Assembly (NCBI RefSeq): GCF_009729555.1
Contig: NZ_WODC01000005.1
Span: 186,001 to 250,000, forward strand
From: Pseudodesulfovibrio alkaliphilus
GTDB lineage: Bacteria; Desulfobacterota; Desulfovibrionia; Desulfovibrionales; Desulfovibrionaceae
DNA: 64,000 nt
Direction of reading: 5' to 3'
Part shown: positions 14,239-21,780 of the stretch, one piece after another
Layout: each line of letters begins with the position of its first letter
Numbering within the stretch: position 1 is the first letter of the stretch
Made by a program: the position numbers and the translations under genes
Notes under the pieces: generated by a model
Told to the model about the DNA's origin: nothing
The model's database searches: none
What the model saw: the letters and a program-made list of their open reading frames with translations, nothing else

Positions 14239-14265
14239 AAAAAAAACGCCCGGACGGGCCGGGCG
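14239..14265 (-). terminator. Rho-independent terminator of the partner-switch operon
   Basis: On the minus strand CGCCCGG, 5-nt loop, CCGGGCG, then eight T. It follows the stop of the RsbW-like gene by 25 nt. Confidence 0.9.
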
Positions 14266-14290
14266 GAATGACGGAGGGACCAGCGGCGGG

Positions 14291-14707
14291 CTATGCCGAC
14301 TGGGCGGGCAGGGCGAAACAGATGGTCAGTTCATTGGCGTTGTCGGCGCGGGTGTAGCGGCAGTGGTCGGCCATGGTGGTCACCAGGAATATGCCGAGGC
14401 CGCCCACGGCGCGCTGGTCCATGTCTGCCCCGGTGTCAGGCGGGGGGGCGGCAAGGGGGTCAAAGGGGGTGCCCCGGTCGCGGATCAGGCAGCAGAACAG
14501 TCCGTCGCGCACTTTGCACTCGATCTCGAAGGTCCCCGGAGCCCCGCCATAGGCGTGGCGGGCCACGTTGACCAGAACCTCCTCCAGAGCGAGGTCCAGG
14601 CGCGGCAGCGTGGACGGGTCGAGGCCCGCCTGTGTGGCCATGGCCAGGACATGGTCGCGGGCCGGTTGCAGACTCGAGAGGTCCGGGGTGGCGGCGAAGA
14701 CCGGCAT
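14291..14707 (-). CDS. RsbW-like anti-sigma factor / serine kinase
   Basis: 138-residue GHKL ATPase of the HATPase_c_2 type. N box LALEEVLVNVARHAYG, G1 box IRDRGTPFDP and G2 box GGLGIFLV are visible. Such proteins bind a sigma factor or another partner and phosphorylate the STAS antagonist. It starts 3 nt after the STAS gene. No sigma factor gene is adjacent, so the target may be encoded elsewhere. Confidence 0.87.
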   Translation of the reverse strand: MPVFAATPDLSSLQPARDHVLAMATQAGLDPSTLPRLDLALEEVLVNVARHAYGGAPGTFEIECKVRDGLFCCLIRDRGTPFDPLAAPPPDTGADMDQRAVGGLGIFLVTTMADHCRYTRADNANELTICFALPAQSA

Positions 14708-14710
14708 GGG

Positions 14711-15040
14711 TCAGCCGGCCAGGGCGTCTTCCAGGGTGGGATGGATGGTGAACATGGCGGCGAAGCCAGAGACCACGAACACCTCTTCCACCATGCCCGA
14801 GAGGTTGCAGAAGGCCAGACTGCCCTGGGCGCCCTTGAGCTGTTTGGCAGCCGAGAGGATGCTGCGCAGTCCGGCGGAGCTGATGTATTCGAGGCCCGAG
14901 AGGTCGGCGATGATATGGGTATCGCCCGCCGCGAGCCAGTTTCGGCACTGGGTGTCGAACTCCTGGGCTGTGATGGCGTCCATGCGTCCGGTCACGGTGA
15001 CCACGAGTTTCCCCTCGTGTTTGCTGCTGCTGAATTTCAT
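14711..15040 (-). CDS. STAS-domain anti-sigma factor antagonist
   Basis: 109 residues, single STAS domain. DLSGLEYISSAGLRSIL (residues 46-62) carries the phosphorylatable serine (S54 or S55) typical of SpoIIAA/RsbV proteins. In the usual scheme the RsbW-like kinase phosphorylates it and the SpoIIE-type phosphatase of the same operon reactivates it. AAGGAGA lies before the start; the gap to the phosphatase gene is 12 nt. Confidence 0.9.
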   Translation of the reverse strand: MKFSSSKHEGKLVVTVTGRMDAITAQEFDTQCRNWLAAGDTHIIADLSGLEYISSAGLRSILSAAKQLKGAQGSLAFCNLSGMVEEVFVVSGFAAMFTIHPTLEDALAG

Positions 15041-15052
15041 GAATGTCTCCTT

Positions 15053-16987
15053 TTATTTGTCACACTTGCCGCAGAACTGCATGGCGAGCATGGTGATGTC
15101 GTCCGAGGGCTCTGCCCCGCGTGCGAAGGCGGCCACCGAGTCGTTGACCGTTTTGACCAGGGTTGGGGCGAAGCGTTGCGAGGCCTCGGCCACGGTGCGC
15201 AGGAGCCGTTCCTCGGAGTAGAGGGCCTGTTCCGGGTTCATGGCCTCGGTCACGCCGTCGGTGTAGATGAAGAGGATGTCGCCCGGAGCCATTGTCATGG
15301 TCCGGGTGGAGTATTCCATGCCCTCCATGACGCCGGCCACTGGTTCGCCCAGGGGGGCGACCCAGCGGGGCTCGCCACCGCATGGCAAATGAATGGGAGG
15401 GTTGTGTCCCGCGTTGGCATAGCGGGTTTCGCCGGTTTCGATGTCGATGATGGCAAGAAACAGGGTGACGAACATGCACGAGTCGTTTTCCGCAGCCAGG
15501 TCGGCGTTGACCTTGCTCAGAATCTGGCCGGGGTCGAGGCCCTTCTCGGCCACCACCTTGAGCAGGGTCTTGGTCACGGCCATGAAGAAGGCGGCGGGTA
15601 CGCCCTTGCCCGACACGTCGCCCACCAGAAAGCAGAAGTGGGTTTCGTCCACGAAGAAGAAGTCGTAAAGGTCGCCGCCCACCTCTTTGGCCGGTTCGAT
15701 GGAGGCGAAGACCTCGAACTCGGTGCGGTCCGGGAAGGCCGGGAAGAGCTTGGGCAGGATGCCCATCTGTATGTCCCGTGCGATGCGCAGCTCGGACTCG
15801 ATGCGCTCTTTGGCCGCCGTGGTGGTGGTCAGGTTGGCGATATACTCCTTGAGGGATTCCTTCATGACCCGGAAGGAACCGGCCAGATCCCCGACCTCGT
15901 CGTTGGTGTGCACCTTTGGCAGCATCAGGTCGAGATTGCCCGAGGCGATTTCCAGGGCTGACCGGGAGAGTTCGCTCAGCGGGCGGGTGATGCGTCTGGC
16001 GATGTAGATGATGACCAGCGCCAGCAGGGCGAAGCCGACAAGGCCGATAAGGACCATGACATTGGAGAGCCGGTGGACCTCGGCCAGCATCTCGGCCCTG
16101 GGGAAGAGGACGCCTAGGGACCAGCCCCCGTATTCCAGGCCGGTGTGGAATAGGTAGCGCTCGTTGCCGAAGACGTTTTCGTCGATGCGGACAAAGGCGC
16201 TTTTGCCCGCGATCATGTCGCGGCCCACCTGCCGAAATTCGGGGGCCTCCATCTCCTCGGCCATGGAGAAGAAGGTGTGGTTCATGATCAGCTTGCGGTT
16301 GGGGTGGGCGATGAAGGTGCCGTGGCGCGAGAGCAGGAAGGCGAAGCCGGTGTCGAAGATGCGAATTTCTTCGAGCATGTCCTGAAGCCACTCCAGGGAG
16401 ATGTCTGCCGTGACCACGCCCGCGAAGGTCTTTTTGCCGTCCTGGTTGCGATAGAAGGGCACGGCGTAGGTGGCCATGACCACGCCCCCGCCGCCCTGAT
16501 CGTTGTAGGGCTCGGTCCATACGGCCTGCTCAAGCTCCTTGGGCAGTTGATACCAGTCCATGTAGAAGTAGCGGTAGTCAGGGCTGCCGAGCATGGTGAA
16601 GGCGATGCGCCCGCCCGAGCGGAAGTGGTAGGGCGCGAAATACAGGCGCTCCGGCTCCTGGGTATAGGGCTCGAAGGCGATGGCCATGCCGAATATCTCG
16701 GGGTTGTTGGCGATGACGCGTTTGTTGAGGTTGAGGATGTCCTCGCGGCTCAAGGTGGCGTCCTCAAGGGAGTATGCGATGTTGTTGGCCACCTTTTGCA
16801 CGGAGAGCAGCACCGAGTCGATGCGGCTGGCCGTCTCCTGAGCCAGGTGGCGCGAGTTGGTCTCGGACTGGCGCAGGATGATGGTGCGCGAATAGGCGTA
16901 GTTGTAGGCCACGATGGCCGCGAGGATGACAAAGGCGCAGGAGAGGATGAGGGCCGCGAGCCGAAAGGCGATGCCGTATCTTTTCAC
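15053..16987 (-). CDS. Membrane SpoIIE-type (PP2C) phosphatase with double cache and HAMP
   Basis: 644 residues. Membrane helix about 9-28, a periplasmic double cache region about 35-290, second helix about 300-325, HAMP about 325-380, then the PP2C/SpoIIE domain about 420-640 with GGDLYDF, GDVSGKGVPAA, YTDGVTEA and EPSDDITML, the metal-binding pattern. It would sense a periplasmic ligand and dephosphorylate the STAS protein. It overlaps the solute-binding-protein gene by 4 nt, so both are translationally coupled. Confidence 0.93.
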   Translation of the reverse strand: MKRYGIAFRLAALILSCAFVILAAIVAYNYAYSRTIILRQSETNSRHLAQETASRIDSVLLSVQKVANNIAYSLEDATLSREDILNLNKRVIANNPEIFGMAIAFEPYTQEPERLYFAPYHFRSGGRIAFTMLGSPDYRYFYMDWYQLPKELEQAVWTEPYNDQGGGGVVMATYAVPFYRNQDGKKTFAGVVTADISLEWLQDMLEEIRIFDTGFAFLLSRHGTFIAHPNRKLIMNHTFFSMAEEMEAPEFRQVGRDMIAGKSAFVRIDENVFGNERYLFHTGLEYGGWSLGVLFPRAEMLAEVHRLSNVMVLIGLVGFALLALVIIYIARRITRPLSELSRSALEIASGNLDLMLPKVHTNDEVGDLAGSFRVMKESLKEYIANLTTTTAAKERIESELRIARDIQMGILPKLFPAFPDRTEFEVFASIEPAKEVGGDLYDFFFVDETHFCFLVGDVSGKGVPAAFFMAVTKTLLKVVAEKGLDPGQILSKVNADLAAENDSCMFVTLFLAIIDIETGETRYANAGHNPPIHLPCGGEPRWVAPLGEPVAGVMEGMEYSTRTMTMAPGDILFIYTDGVTEAMNPEQALYSEERLLRTVAEASQRFAPTLVKTVNDSVAAFARGAEPSDDITMLAMQFCGKCDK

Positions 16988-17958
16988 CGGATCGGCCCCC
17001 TGTAGAATTCGGGAAAGATGGGTGCGTCGTCCACGAAGCCGGTCTCGACGAGGGCGGTCCTGACCCGTTCGTAGTCCTCCTGGCGCAGGACCCCCATGGC
17101 GGGAACCTTGTCCGAGAGGATGATGTTTTCCATGCGCCTGAGCATCCAGCGTTGGTGGGGGCGGTTGGCCGGGGCTCCGGCCCGGTCCATGCGGGCCATG
17201 ACCGCGTCCAGCGCCTCCTCGCGGTGGGCAAAGGCGTAGTGCCAGCCTCGCACCGTGGCCCGGACCACGGCCTGGGGCAGTTCGGGTCTGGCGTTGGCCG
17301 TGCGCTCCAGGCAGTAGATGCCGTCCTCGGGAAAGTCGAGGCCGTGGTTGCTGAAGAAAATGGGCTTCAGGTCGGCTTCTTCAAGGCCGTAGGAGAGCAG
17401 GGTGTGGTATTCGTTATACCACATGCCAGACGCGGCCTGGACCCCGCCGCGCATGAAAAGATCAAGGGAGTCGGACTGCGGGACCACGGTGACCTTGAGC
17501 CCGCGCTGGCGAAACAGGGCCCGCGCCTGGATCTGGAACTCGTTGGCCCACAGGCCGATCCTTTTGCCGTTGAGGTCGTCCACGGTCTCAATGTTGTCGC
17601 TGGTCTTGGTGATGAGCATCAGGGCGGAGTGCTGCACGAACTGGCCCACATTGACGATGGGCAGGGTGGTGCGCCGCTGGATGGCCGTGCTCAGAAACAT
17701 GGTGGCGAAGTCGGCGCGACCCGCTTCGAGGAGTTCGCTGGCCAGCACGTCGGGGCCGCCATGGATGAGGGTCATGTCCACACCCTCGTCCTGGTAGAAC
17801 CCCTTGTCCTGCGCCATGTAGAACCCGGCGAACTGCGCCTGGGGCAGCCACTGAAGCACGAGGGAGGTCTTTTCCAGCGCCTGCGCCGGAAAGGCGAGGA
17901 ACAGCATGGCCACCAGGGCCAGAGCGGCGGCGCGGCCATATTCAGGGAGATGGCGCAT
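16984..17958 (-). CDS. NMT1/THI5-like periplasmic solute-binding protein
   Basis: 324 residues with signal peptide (cleavage after AFPAQA near 28). LQWLPQAQFAGFYMAQDKGFY and DEGVDMTLIHGGPD are the typical start of the NMT1/ThiY family, which binds pyrimidine, taurine or similar ligands for ABC importers. No permease or ATPase gene is in the operon. Together with the 4-nt overlap with the cache phosphatase this suggests a role as sensor component rather than transporter part. Start at 17958 is 2 nt after the rhodanese stop. Confidence 0.87.
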   Translation of the reverse strand: MRHLPEYGRAAALALVAMLFLAFPAQALEKTSLVLQWLPQAQFAGFYMAQDKGFYQDEGVDMTLIHGGPDVLASELLEAGRADFATMFLSTAIQRRTTLPIVNVGQFVQHSALMLITKTSDNIETVDDLNGKRIGLWANEFQIQARALFRQRGLKVTVVPQSDSLDLFMRGGVQAASGMWYNEYHTLLSYGLEEADLKPIFFSNHGLDFPEDGIYCLERTANARPELPQAVVRATVRGWHYAFAHREEALDAVMARMDRAGAPANRPHQRWMLRRMENIILSDKVPAMGVLRQEDYERVRTALVETGFVDDAPIFPEFYRGPIR

Positions 17959-17960
17959 GG

Positions 17961-19142
17961 TCAGCGTCCCACCGTCTTGTCGAATTCGGCCATCTTGTCC
18001 TCCCAGGTCTTGTCTCCGACCTTGCCTTTCCAGCCCAGGCGCGGGTCCACCTGGACGATGAGGGTTTCCTGCATGACGGTATGGGTGGCATAGCGGTGAC
18101 GGGTCAACTTGCGCACCGAAGTCATGAACAGGTCCTGGGGTATGCACAGGATCTTGCCTGCGTCGGCGAGGTCCACGACGATGTAGTTGTTGAATTTGAC
18201 GTTGGCCAGCAGGAAACTGAGCACCTTGCGGTCACTGTTGTCCAGATTGGGGTCGCCCGTGAGCTTCAGCAGCATCTCCTGGCTGCTGACGATGGAGCGG
18301 TTGGTTTCGATGACCGGCCTGACCCTGCCCGGGTCGCCTGCAATGGCGGCTACGCCGCCTTCGAGAAAGGCGTAGTCGAAGTAGCCGTATGCCTCGAGAA
18401 AATACTGGAGCCAGCGGACCTGGCTGCCCACGGCATCGAAGAAGAGCAGGCGCTTTTCGGTCCAGATGCGCGAGACAACGAGGGAGAGCAGGGGGTCGAG
18501 GGCGATGGGCCTGATGCCGTCGATGTCGGGGACCACGTCGCGCTGGAAGGGGTCGCGGATGTCGATGACCACCGCGTCAGTGGCCTTTGCCGCCTCGGCG
18601 AAGGCGTCGTAGGAAAGCACGCGGATCAGGTAGTCGCGGGGCGGAATGACGCGCCCGGCCCGCGCCGGGGTTTCGCCCATGAGGGTGGCCTTGTCCGGGG
18701 CGGCGTCGATCCAGTCGAAGATGCCGCCATCATAGACGAAGACGTTGGTGAATCCCAGCGACAGGGCCACCTGGACCGCCTGATAGCTCTTGGCGCAGGT
18801 GTGGCCGTTGCAATAAAAGGCCATGGGCGTGGCCGACTCCCTGGGCCGGACCCGTACCAGCCTGTCGCCGAAGTCCGGTTCGTTGAGGGGCAGGAGCACG
18901 GCATTGTTGATCCGGGCCACGTCGTATTCCAGCCGCGAGCGGATGTCGAGGACGATGATCTCGCCATATCCGGCCAGCAGGTCGGCGGTGGAGATGAAGG
19001 GCACCTCGGGGTAATAGTGGCGCAGGGGAAAACCCTCGGAGGCTCTGGCCGACGGGCCGGGGGCCGCAAGGGCGAACGCAAGGGCGACCAGGAGGGCGCC
19101 CAGGGCGCGGGGGAGGCCGGAGAGTCGGGAGCGTCGGATCAT
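17961..19142 (-). CDS. Exported protein with two rhodanese domains
   Basis: 393 residues with signal peptide (hydrophobic 12-28). Domain 1 (about 45-160) has a rhodanese loop with C111 and C116 (YCNGHTCAKS). Domain 2 (about 185-295) keeps the fold (VVIDIRDPFQRDVV) but the catalytic loop reads FFDAVGSQV without Cys, so it is likely inactive. The last 100 residues are a separate conserved extension. A role in periplasmic sulfur or persulfide chemistry or sensing is inferred. It overlaps the hydrolase gene by 4 nt. Confidence 0.85.
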   Translation of the reverse strand: MIRRSRLSGLPRALGALLVALAFALAAPGPSARASEGFPLRHYYPEVPFISTADLLAGYGEIIVLDIRSRLEYDVARINNAVLLPLNEPDFGDRLVRVRPRESATPMAFYCNGHTCAKSYQAVQVALSLGFTNVFVYDGGIFDWIDAAPDKATLMGETPARAGRVIPPRDYLIRVLSYDAFAEAAKATDAVVIDIRDPFQRDVVPDIDGIRPIALDPLLSLVVSRIWTEKRLLFFDAVGSQVRWLQYFLEAYGYFDYAFLEGGVAAIAGDPGRVRPVIETNRSIVSSQEMLLKLTGDPNLDNSDRKVLSFLLANVKFNNYIVVDLADAGKILCIPQDLFMTSVRKLTRHRYATHTVMQETLIVQVDPRLGWKGKVGDKTWEDKMAEFDKTVGR

Positions 19143-19651
19143 GCCCGCCCCCGGCAGGATTCGAGAAAACTGGCGAAGAGGAGGTCGATCCGTTCCAGAC
19201 TGTTCGCCAGGGAGTGGTCATCGTCCAGGATATGCAGGCTGGCCCGGTGGCGGCGGGCGAAGCGCAGGACGTTGTCCACCGGCACCACCTCGTCGCCCCA
19301 GCCGTGGACCACCGTGACGGCGGGGGGCAGGCCCGTGAAGGTGTCAAGGGCGTAGCCGGGCAGGAAAAAGGCCGGGGCCACCAGGAAGAGTGCTGCCACC
19401 TCGCTCCGGGCGCAGGCGGCTGCGGCCACATAGCCGCCCATGCTCGATCCTGCCAGGATCACGGGGCGCGTCTCTTGGGCCAGGGCATCCGCCAGCCGCT
19501 CCACCCTCTGGTCCGGGCCGTCCAGATCGCGGAAGTCCGGTGCCTCCATGGACAGGCCGAGCCGCCCGGCGGTCCTGGCCAGGGCCGTGCTCTTGCGGCC
19601 CCAGGGTGCGGCGAGGGAACCATGGCACCAGATCAGGCGGGAATCGGTCAT
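19139..19651 (-). CDS. Small alpha/beta hydrolase (YqiA/esterase-like)
   Basis: 170 residues. CHGSLAAPWGRKS is the oxyanion region, AGSSMGGYVA carries the nucleophile Ser, HGWGDEVVPVDN the catalytic Asp region and DDDHSLANS the His, so the triad seems complete. Cytoplasmic. It is the first gene of a six-gene operon ending at 14291. AGGAG precedes the ATG at 19651. Substrate unknown. Confidence 0.85.
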   Translation of the reverse strand: MTDSRLIWCHGSLAAPWGRKSTALARTAGRLGLSMEAPDFRDLDGPDQRVERLADALAQETRPVILAGSSMGGYVAAAACARSEVAALFLVAPAFFLPGYALDTFTGLPPAVTVVHGWGDEVVPVDNVLRFARRHRASLHILDDDHSLANSLERIDLLFASFLESCRGRA

Positions 19652-19716: not shown

Positions 19717-21780
19717 TCAACACGTTTGCTTCCCAGGAGCCTGCGCCTCGGTCGAATCTGCCGTGGTTTCCCGGGGCCGTATAAGCCTGAGGACGATCTC
19801 GATCAGGGCGCTCTTCCTGACGGGCTTGGCCAGATAGTGGTCCATGCCTGCCTCCAGGCAGCGCCCTGCGTCGTCGTCGTGGGCGTGGGCGGTCAGGGCC
19901 ACCACCGGGGTCCGGGAGAGGCCGTGTTCGTTCTCCCATTGCCTGATGGCGCGGGTGGCCTCGCACCCATCCATATCCGGCATCCGCACATCCATGAGCA
20001 CGAGGTCGAAGCCGCCGCTCCGGAAGAGGTCCAGTCCCTGGCGGGCGTTTTCCGCCACTGTCAGACGCCACGGCGTGTCATTGAGGTAGGTGCGGATCAC
20101 GAAGGCGTTGTAGCGGGAGTCCTCGAACATCAGGATGGAGGCGGCGGGCAGGTCAAGGCCGCCTCGGGCCGGGGGTGCGTCGCGGGATGTCCGGTCCGGG
20201 CCGGTGCGAGGGTTGGCCACAGCCTGGGGTGCGGAGAAGGGAACGGTGAAATGGAAGGCGCTGCCTCGGCCCGGTGAGCTTTCGGCCCAGATGCGTCCGT
20301 CCATCATGTGGATCAGCCGCTTGCTGATGGCAAGCCCCAGTCCGGTGCCGCCGTGGCGGCGGGTGGTGGTGTTGTTGGCCTGGGTGAAGGCGTCGAAGAT
20401 GGAGGCCAGCTTGTCGGCCGGAATGCCGGGGCCGGTGTCCGACACTGAAAACTGTGCGACAATACCCCCGTCGCGGCTTGGGGCGCGGGCCACTTCCAGG
20501 CGCACGTCGCCGCTGTCGGTAAACTTGACCGCGTTGTCCAGCAGGCTGGCGAGGACCTGCCCGAGTCTGGCCGGGTCGCCTGTGAGCCTGTCGGGCATGT
20601 CCGGGGCCAGGGTGCAGGTGAATTCCAGGGACTTGTCCGCTGCTTTGGAATCCACGGCCGCACAGGCTTTGTCCACGGTCTCGGCCAGGCTGAAGGCGGT
20701 GCGCTCCAGGGTCAGGTCTCCCGCCTCTATCCTGGCGAGATCAATGAGGTCGTCAAGGATGTGGAGCAGATTCTCGCCCGCATTTCTGATGATCTCGACA
20801 TAATTTGCTTGATCCTGGGTCAGGGGGGATTCGCGCAGGATGTCGGCCATGCCCAGGATGGCGTTCATGGGGGTGCGGATTTCGTGACTCATGCCCGACA
20901 GAAACCGGCTCTTGGCGAGGTTCGCCGTCTCGGCCGCGAGCCTGGCGTTGTCCAGTTCGGCCAGGGCCGCATTGAGGGAGGCGTTGTTGCGCTCAAGTTC
21001 CTCGGTGCGTTCGGCGACCATGCTCTCCAGGTGGGTGCGGTGGTCCGTCAGGCGCGAGTTGGCCACCTGGAGGTCTTTGATGAGGTGGCGCATTGCCTCG
21101 CGCATGTCGTCAAAGGCGCGGGAAAGATTGCGCAACTCGCAGGCGGGCGCCATTTCCACCGGAGTGTCCAGATTGCCCTCGGCGATGGCCTCGGCGGATT
21201 GCTCGAGCTTTTGCAGCGGGATGAGCAGCCGCTTGCGGGTGAAGTGGCCCGTGGCCTGGGTGATGATCAGGATCAGAATCAGGCCCAGGGCCAGGGTGGA
21301 GCCCGCATTGACCAGAATATCCCGGCGCAGGGGGGCGCTGGAGACGACAAGGGTGAAGGAGCCGATGGCTTCGCCGTGTCGGGTGATGGGCGTGGTTCTG
21401 GTCAGGGTGCTGGACAGGGGAGTTTTCCGCCCGTCGTCGACAGGCCGGATGCGCTCGGCCATGACCTCGGCTCCGGCGCTGACCCGGGCCAGGATCACGG
21501 CGTTGTCCACGAGGATGGCGTCGAGGAGGTCTCCCACCGAGGCGTGGTCCAGTTGCCAGACTGCGGTGGACAGGCCGGTCTGGGCCACGGCCAGGAGATT
21601 GTCGATGCGCCGTTCGAGCTGGCTGGAGAGGCTGTGGGCGTTCCAGGCGATGGCGGCGGCCGAGAAGGCGAGCACCACTGCCGCGATGACCGCCGACAGA
21701 AGCAGCACCGCCTTTTGTCCCGGCGGTGCTGATGCGCGTCGCGGGCCGCTTGCGGATTTCGACTGATTGATCGCGCACAT
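19717..21780 (-). CDS. Hybrid sensor histidine kinase
   Basis: 687 residues. Membrane helices at about 24-46 and 158-176 enclose a small periplasmic sensor region, then HAMP, a coiled coil, the kinase core with H299 ([12 protein letters not shown]), N box, G boxes (DTGPGIP, GGTGLGLAISK) and a C-terminal receiver (LVLMDVRMPDMDG). No output domain; a phosphotransfer partner must be elsewhere. Its stop lies 65 nt upstream of the hydrolase start on the same strand, so the promoter of the following operon may be within or just after this gene. Confidence 0.92.
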   Translation of the reverse strand: MCAINQSKSASGPRRASAPPGQKAVLLLSAVIAAVVLAFSAAAIAWNAHSLSSQLERRIDNLLAVAQTGLSTAVWQLDHASVGDLLDAILVDNAVILARVSAGAEVMAERIRPVDDGRKTPLSSTLTRTTPITRHGEAIGSFTLVVSSAPLRRDILVNAGSTLALGLILILIITQATGHFTRKRLLIPLQKLEQSAEAIAEGNLDTPVEMAPACELRNLSRAFDDMREAMRHLIKDLQVANSRLTDHRTHLESMVAERTEELERNNASLNAALAELDNARLAAETANLAKSRFLSGMSHEIRTPMNAILGMADILRESPLTQDQANYVEIIRNAGENLLHILDDLIDLARIEAGDLTLERTAFSLAETVDKACAAVDSKAADKSLEFTCTLAPDMPDRLTGDPARLGQVLASLLDNAVKFTDSGDVRLEVARAPSRDGGIVAQFSVSDTGPGIPADKLASIFDAFTQANNTTTRRHGGTGLGLAISKRLIHMMDGRIWAESSPGRGSAFHFTVPFSAPQAVANPRTGPDRTSRDAPPARGGLDLPAASILMFEDSRYNAFVIRTYLNDTPWRLTVAENARQGLDLFRSGGFDLVLMDVRMPDMDGCEATRAIRQWENEHGLSRTPVVALTAHAHDDDAGRCLEAGMDHYLAKPVRKSALIEIVLRLIRPRETTADSTEAQAPGKQTC

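Follow-up and report, generated by a model that had tools for sequence, protein, structure and literature searches.

An NMT1-type binding protein as the proposed periplasmic co-receptor of a dCache-HAMP phosphatase in Pseudodesulfovibrio alkaliphilus

Results

The window, a 64,000-nucleotide stretch of the Pseudodesulfovibrio alkaliphilus genome on contig 5, carries six closely spaced genes that end in a terminator-like hairpin and are preceded by a histidine kinase gene. In the direction of transcription these features are:

19717..21780, minus strand, hybrid histidine kinase, same strand, 65 nt upstream of the hydrolase gene
19139..19651, minus strand, small alpha/beta hydrolase of 170 aa (Pfam Abhydrolase_6, 9.9e-08)
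17961..19142, minus strand, rhodanese protein (Pfam Rhodanese, 3.5e-18)
16984..17958, minus strand, NMT1/THI5-like periplasmic binding protein, proposed co-receptor (Pfam NMT1, 2.8e-39)
15053..16987, minus strand, GTG start, membrane phosphatase, proposed receptor (Pfam dCache_1/MCP-like PDC, HAMP and SpoIIE, 1.4e-49)
14711..15040, minus strand, STAS anti-anti-sigma-type protein with the Ser motif YISSAGLR (Pfam STAS, 6.3e-22; TIGR00377)
14291..14707, minus strand, RsbW-type GHKL serine kinase (Pfam HATPase_c_2, 2.9e-27)
14247..14265, minus strand, intrinsic terminator-like hairpin with 7 GC pairs and 8 T (terminator scan)

The hydrolase and rhodanese genes overlap by 4 nt, as do the NMT1 and phosphatase genes; 2 nt separate rhodanese from NMT1, 12 nt the phosphatase from STAS and 3 nt STAS from RsbW. 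Coordinates, Pfam matches and the hairpin thus confirm the preliminary description of six genes on one strand, joined by 4-nt overlaps or gaps of 2-12 nt and followed by one terminator. The terminator call derives from the 7-GC stem of the hairpin and its location past the end of the RsbW gene, since the number of terminator-like sites (4 in 8.2 kb versus a mean of 5.2 in shuffled sequences) gives no support. The transcript may be longer than the six genes, because the histidine kinase gene lies on the same strand at a distance of 65 nt and is matched by a homolog at this upstream position in 19 of the 22 related loci, namely in all 19 same-genus relatives read (L046-L062, L065, L067) and in none of the three loci of g37, a second genus of the family.

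The three promoter-distal genes have the characteristics of an RsbU/V/W-type partner switch. Five Asp residues of the PP2C part (D44, D62, D182, D234 and D235), which we take to be metal-binding, were present in 65/65 sequences. Likewise, the STAS motif S54-S55-A-G-L-R, containing the putative phospho-acceptor Ser, was conserved in 38/38 sequences, and N47, D77, G79, G102, G103 and G105, representing the N, G1 and G2 boxes of the GHKL kinase, in 36/36. The combination of a PP2C phosphatase, a STAS protein with conserved Ser and a GHKL kinase in one operon resembles RsbU-RsbV-RsbW and SpoIIE-type switching as outlined in the available text of two reports (PMC8256260, PMC11619594). Unlike RsbU-RsbV-RsbW, however, the binding-protein gene overlaps the phosphatase gene, the STAS-RsbW genes often do not adjoin, and no sigma factor gene was seen beside them. 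In the window, no sigma-factor gene was recognised near the operon, and the five Sigma70_r2 matches of the genome all lie outside contig 5.

Among NCBIfam models, the phosphatase was matched best by SiaA of the Pseudomonas aeruginosa SiaABCD system (PMC7647112), with 6e-21 across its HAMP-PP2C part. With 74.6 bits, this match fell short of the cut-off (700), and it covered residues 309-638 only. Moreover, STAS and RsbW types replace SiaC and SiaB, and none of the six genes encodes a diguanylate cyclase. Membership of the locus in the SiaABCD type was rejected on the basis of this score and these partners.

To define the distribution of the NMT1 subfamily (threshold E<=1e-40), 395 genomes from 246 genera of the phylum were sampled. 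The subfamily was detected in 66 of these genomes and 44 genera, with one match per genome. A dCache-HAMP receptor gene was located directly downstream of NMT1 in 63 of the 66 genomes, comprising 57 of 60 fetched loci, the window, and all five unfetched loci among the 65 further matches, these five judged by coordinates only. The coupling between binding-protein and Cache phosphatase genes proposed from the window is therefore conserved in the phylum sample. With starts chosen by script, the NMT1 and receptor genes overlapped in 72 of the 84 loci read. Two loci (L136, L137) contained NMT1 and no recognisable receptor, and two Omnitrophota genomes gave no NMT1 match. Nine of the 60 fetched phylum loci included a molybdenum hydroxylase gene, a raw count that serves as a lead only.

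For the tree, the distances and the conservation counts of NMT1 and PP2C, 77 of the 84 pairs were used. Two pairs were dropped by length, namely L065, from a draft genome, with a frameshift and too short a piece of NMT1, and L122, whose receptor runs into a contig end. L056, L057, L102, L113 and L126 were dropped because the extracted receptor showed a stop close to its terminus. Fifteen NMT1 positions were invariant in 77/77 sequences, among them Q106, N182, E183, E211, D212 and Q269. Distances between NMT1 proteins correlated with those between the Cache domains (r=0.82, compared to a maximum of 0.23 in 1000 permutations), a value inflated by shared descent. A predicted model of NMT1 based on five sequences had a pLDDT of 43 and was discarded.

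Membership in the NMT1 family favours an ordinary importer subunit with permease and ATPase encoded elsewhere, in which case the operon would reflect mere co-regulation. The solved relatives by sequence, an ABC binding protein (4nmy), THI5/THI13 and a formylaminopyrimidine-binding protein, agree with such a role, and the genome itself has 28 BPD_transp_1 matches. However, a binding protein of the SsuA/ThiY type is expected to have its cognate permease and ATPase nearby, and an SsuC-type permease was found at none of 87 loci of the NMT1 subfamily and ABC ATPase matches at five. In contrast, among 20 fetched Pseudomonadota NMT1 matches serving as controls, an ABC ATPase occurred within 3 kb in 20/20 and a permease in 17/20, while Cache-HAMP was near none. 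Furthermore, seven regions of the P. alkaliphilus genome (L076, L077 and L176-L180), which hold 8 of the 28 BPD_transp_1 matches, each apparently have a binding protein of their own as judged by eye. The permease count, the controls and these permease regions make an importer subunit highly unlikely. The permease count and the controls also support the earlier claim that the binding protein has no adjacent ABC partner. With no transporter gene next to NMT1 but a membrane sensor gene adjoining it, the pair probably constitutes one receptor.

The receptor carried a PP2C output domain in 65 of the 77 pairs and a class III cyclase in the remaining 12. Three output changes mapped to the NMT1 tree, a quick tree without bootstrap, and at least two of them are forced by well-supported branches. 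We rather favour the view that a two-protein receptor, consisting of NMT1 and the dCache-HAMP protein, gates both types of output, which would have been swapped at least twice while NMT1 was kept. Of the 60 phylum loci, 20 had STAS or RsbW in the fetched stretch and none of the 12 cyclase loci did, as expected if STAS-RsbW serves the PP2C output. Both genes were absent from the stretch in the other 40 loci, 28 of which are not cyclase-type, and STAS-RsbW was also missing beside 9 of the 23 near loci in Pseudodesulfovibrio and g37.

In the phylum sample, 17 of 79 Cache matches had no adjoining NMT1 match. Fifteen of these were without recognisable NMT1 in the fetched stretch, and in seven of the 15 RsbW precedes the receptor in the place of NMT1; the remaining two comprised one internally shortened NMT1 and one starting at a contig end. 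The existence of such relatives implies that the Cache group can function without NMT1. This favours direct binding of the ligand by the Cache domain, in which case NMT1 would make no contact with the receptor and only deliver, buffer or scavenge that ligand. Of the five PctA pocket residues given in the available text of PMC7584622, four also have apparent counterparts, mapped by eye, in W145, Y161, D163 and D195. However, position 143, which corresponds to PctA R126, is variable (mostly M, W, Q or L), an argument weakened by the AI-2 binding that the same text reports for domains lacking the five residues. D144, L152, E244 and R252 occur in 94-96% of 83 paired Cache domains but in 31-47% of 13-15 unpaired ones, a small and more divergent set. 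Both the overlapping genes (72 of 84 loci) and the retention of NMT1 through the output swaps point to a tighter link than delivery, and we therefore consider direct binding without NMT1 contact rather unlikely and retain the two-protein receptor.

The rhodanese protein has a signal peptide, as judged by eye, and a rhodanese domain with Cys111, followed by a second rhodanese-like domain in which Asp236 occupies the expected place of the catalytic Cys (placement by eye). Both C111 and D236 were invariant in 10/10 aligned sequences. Hence, of the double rhodanese described previously, the second domain is visible in the alignment, although Pfam detects only one. A third, C-terminal domain (about 285-370), absent from that description, appears winged-helix-like from its predicted order of helices and strands. 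The C-terminus of one ortholog (L008) matched RepL (1.2e-4, over the cut-off), and that of the window's protein gave no RepL match. In a fold search with the rhodanese model, the best 50 rows were nearly all rhodanese-type and did not inform the C-terminal domain.

The order rhodanese-NMT1-Cache/PP2C, with full-length rhodanese, was found in 23/23 loci read in Pseudodesulfovibrio and g37. This speaks for joint action of rhodanese, NMT1 and phosphatase in sensing a sulfur compound, as proposed in the preliminary description. However, no rhodanese gene was seen once Pseudodesulfovibrio and g37 were set aside (0 of 60 phylum loci), and four Pseudodesulfovibrio genomes with NMT1-phosphatase-STAS-RsbW had no rhodanese match in the 12-kb stretch. 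A hydrolase match was obtained in 19 of the 23 loci, the exceptions being L067 and the three g37 loci; among loci with the NMT1-receptor pair, the hydrolase was seen only in part of the genus Pseudodesulfovibrio. Only 10 of the 23 loci keep all six genes. Conservation of gene order, on which the earlier proposal had been staked, thus holds for NMT1-phosphatase and fails for the six-gene set. Rhodanese and hydrolase are additions seen in Pseudodesulfovibrio, the former also in g37, outside the conserved NMT1-receptor pair. Accordingly, the six-gene sulfur-sensing unit was rejected, and a sulfur compound sensed with the help of the rhodanese is scarcely credible.

Discussion

The sequence data are best explained if, as suggested in the preliminary description, NMT1 presents a ligand to the Cache domain, given the lack of an ABC partner (permease 0/87) and a coupling conserved in the phylum sample (63/66). 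NMT1 is thus probably a ligand-binding periplasmic co-receptor that gates the dCache receptor. It would bind a small molecule in the periplasm and dock on the dCache domain of the membrane receptor specified by the next gene downstream, and docking or undocking would be relayed through HAMP to the inner output domain. At the window's locus, the PP2C phosphatase would then dephosphorylate the STAS protein, which in this state may capture the RsbW-type kinase and thereby free the target of the kinase. Equivalent pairs of other genomes would drive a class III adenylate/guanylate cyclase.

NspS-MbaA, DctP-DctB and ChvE-VirA are binding-protein-stimulated receptors. LuxP-LuxQ and BctC-BctE are further examples, described in the available text of PMC7584622 and PMC9602780, respectively. 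The proposed receptor resembles LuxP/LuxQ and its kin in pairing a periplasmic binding protein with a membrane receptor, in the proposed signal from the binding protein to the outer domain, and in the coupling of the two genes in many taxa. The receptor types named as binding-protein-activated in the available part of PMC9602780 are chemoreceptors, sensor kinases, c-di-GMP enzymes and Ser/Thr kinases; the output here differs in being a PP2C phosphatase or class III cyclase. Neither an NMT1-PP2C nor an NMT1-cyclase pair was found in the literature among the matches listed (titles and abstract openings, with few subscription journals). Counting against a co-receptor, neighbouring genes for solute-binding proteins and sensors are not always functionally linked, according to the available text of PMC11113362.

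If the proposal is correct, binding-protein-assisted sensing extends to partner-switching phosphatases and cyclases, and a function is found for orphan binding proteins that occur, within one phylum, in 44 of the 246 genera sampled. The invariant NMT1 positions and the candidate contact surface of the Cache domain would then provide handles for identifying the extracellular cue of a sulfate-reducer partner switch.

In favour of a co-receptor, the P. alkaliphilus genome additionally encodes an NMT1-PAS-histidine-kinase fusion of 937 aa with 28% identity in the NMT1 part. As proposed for the NMT1 protein of the window, this fusion would use an NMT1 domain as sensor but do so in one chain, and histidine kinase sensor domains with a solute-binding-protein fold are already documented in the available text of PMC3831638.

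The operon and its near relatives

The six genes of the operon, with the spacing and terminator given in the preliminary description, were borne out in the window sequence, where the end of the NMT1 gene shares 4 nt with the beginning of the phosphatase gene. The genome is Pseudodesulfovibrio-like, and the nearest named record found was P. pelocollis (L005), with 78-93% identity for five of the window genes and 75% for RsbW. A search of 288 genomes of the family detected full-length orthologs of the rhodanese, with best E-values under 1e-80, in 20 of 36 genomes listed for the genus and in all 3 listed for g37, a second genus of the same family. At all 23 near rhodanese loci (the window's own and L046-L067) the order rhodanese-NMT1-phosphatase was intact; the hydrolase was present at 19, STAS-RsbW lay downstream at 14 and was missing from nine, and 10 had the complete set. 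Four more genomes of the genus (G228, G235, G239, G233) carry NMT1-phosphatase-STAS-RsbW without an adjoining rhodanese match. This gene gain and loss indicates that the rhodanese and switch genes are variable, while NMT1 and receptor remain paired.

Nine Pseudodesulfovibrio loci retained the phosphatase without adjoining STAS-RsbW (L049, L053, L055-L057, L059-L062). Elsewhere in these nine genomes, an RsbW close to the window's was found only in G224; each of the nine retains another STAS gene and contains, within an open reading frame of at least 860 aa, a weaker RsbW-like match. The window's genome has two further PP2C/STAS/RsbW-like modules, L074 (PP2C part, RsbW-like part close behind, then STAS) and L075.

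The NMT1-receptor pair across the phylum

Of the 395 phylum genomes sampled, 66 carry a match to the NMT1 protein (P0003) at E<=1e-40, always a single one; they represent 44 of 246 genera. Besides the window's own, 60 of 65 loci were fetched, and in 57 a Cache receptor relative directly followed NMT1. Of the three exceptions, L101 runs into a contig end, and L136 and L137 have, along with L138, the poorest NMT1 matches of the set. Judged by coordinates, the five unfetched matches also adjoin a Cache match. The pair was present at 84 of 87 loci read (23 + 4 + 60), and its genes overlap in 72 of the 84 pairs, single values of which may be off with script-chosen start codons. The window's genome also encodes a 937-aa NMT1-PAS-PAS-histidine kinase fusion (L078:5863-8676), a one-chain relative of the binding-protein-receptor idea.

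An SsuC-type permease query matched none of the 87 loci and an ATPase query five. In a Pseudomonadota control (20 of the best 21 of 52 listed NMT1 matches, near-copy G1058 left out), the same queries matched at 17/20 and 20/20, respectively, and the Cache-HAMP query matched near none of the 20. Since the best Pseudomonadota match reached only 6e-45 (49/398 genomes at E<=1e-35), the receptor-type NMT1 subfamily was not seen there.

Conversely, 72 of the 395 genomes yielded a total of 79 matches to the Cache-HAMP query at E<=1e-45; by coordinates, 62 of the 79 adjoin an NMT1 match. All other 17 were fetched, and 15 had no recognisable NMT1 in the stretch, so NMT1 often, though not always, accompanies this group of Cache receptors. 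RsbW precedes the receptor in seven of these 15. At L165 (G576) the NMT1 gene lacks a large internal part and adjoins a receptor gene that looks complete; the L164 stretch starts at a contig end, with no adjoining NMT1 match. Cache positions D144, L152, E244 and R252 are conserved at 94-96% in paired (n=83) versus 31-47% in unpaired domains (n=15), and Q147 in 67/83 versus 1/15. Because the unpaired domains are few and have diverged further, these positions constitute a candidate surface, not proof.

Receptor output and ligand

At 12 loci the match to the window's phosphatase was confined to the Cache-HAMP half, the remainder being a class III cyclase, as checked by Pfam in two (Guanylate_cyc, 6.9e-27 and 2.4e-16) and assigned from the sequence in the other ten. 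The PP2C/cyclase label required 3 changes on the NMT1 tree (77 rows; shuffled mean 11), at least two of them forced by well-supported branches, and likewise 3 on the Cache tree. The stretches read at the 12 cyclase loci showed no STAS and no RsbW; of the remaining 48 phylum loci, 20 had one or both. NMT1 thus stays with the sensor half of the receptor, and STAS-RsbW with its phosphatase half.

The PP2C Asp residues (65/65), STAS Ser54-Ser55 (38/38) and RsbW N/G boxes (36/36) are intact. Fifteen NMT1 positions are invariant across 77 sequences, as expected if the ligand type were common to the subfamily; 4nmy has W, W and E at the places aligned to W37, W180 and E183. Six solved NMT1 relatives by sequence include THI5, THI13 and a formylaminopyrimidine-binding protein. 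In 9/60 phylum loci the pair has a molybdenum hydroxylase gene nearby; at four of them (L080, L092, L098 and L105) this gene lies upstream in the same orientation, as part of a gene row that also holds a GNAT gene and STAS-RsbW. From these relatives and neighbours, a nitrogen-ring ligand is a reasonable first guess, no more. Neighbours that also recur among the 60 loci are a GNAT protein (5), a putative MFS transporter called by eye (3) and a 450-aa protein without Pfam match (6); at L085, L112 and L127 the recurring neighbours are accompanied by an aminotransferase.

A binding-protein-gated Cache receptor with exchangeable output best explains these data. It would work like LuxP/LuxQ-type systems, and the window's receptor would feed a partner switch. 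Gene neighbourhood can deceive as evidence of such a link, since three P. aeruginosa binding proteins showed no binding to the two sensor kinases encoded nearby (PMC11113362). A survey passage on the kinds of receptor known to respond to binding proteins mentions no PP2C phosphatases and no cyclases (PMC9602780), and the titles and abstract starts listed by the literature searches contained no description of the NMT1-Cache pair.

The rhodanese C-terminus

17961-18290, minus strand, putative winged-helix-like domain, C-terminus of the rhodanese protein

No RepL match was found in the window's own rhodanese C-terminus; that of the L008 ortholog gave one at 1.2e-4, over the cut-off. The helix and strand order of the modelled C-terminus agrees with a winged-helix-like domain. 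A DNA-binding-type fold would here end a rhodanese protein that seems to carry a signal peptide.
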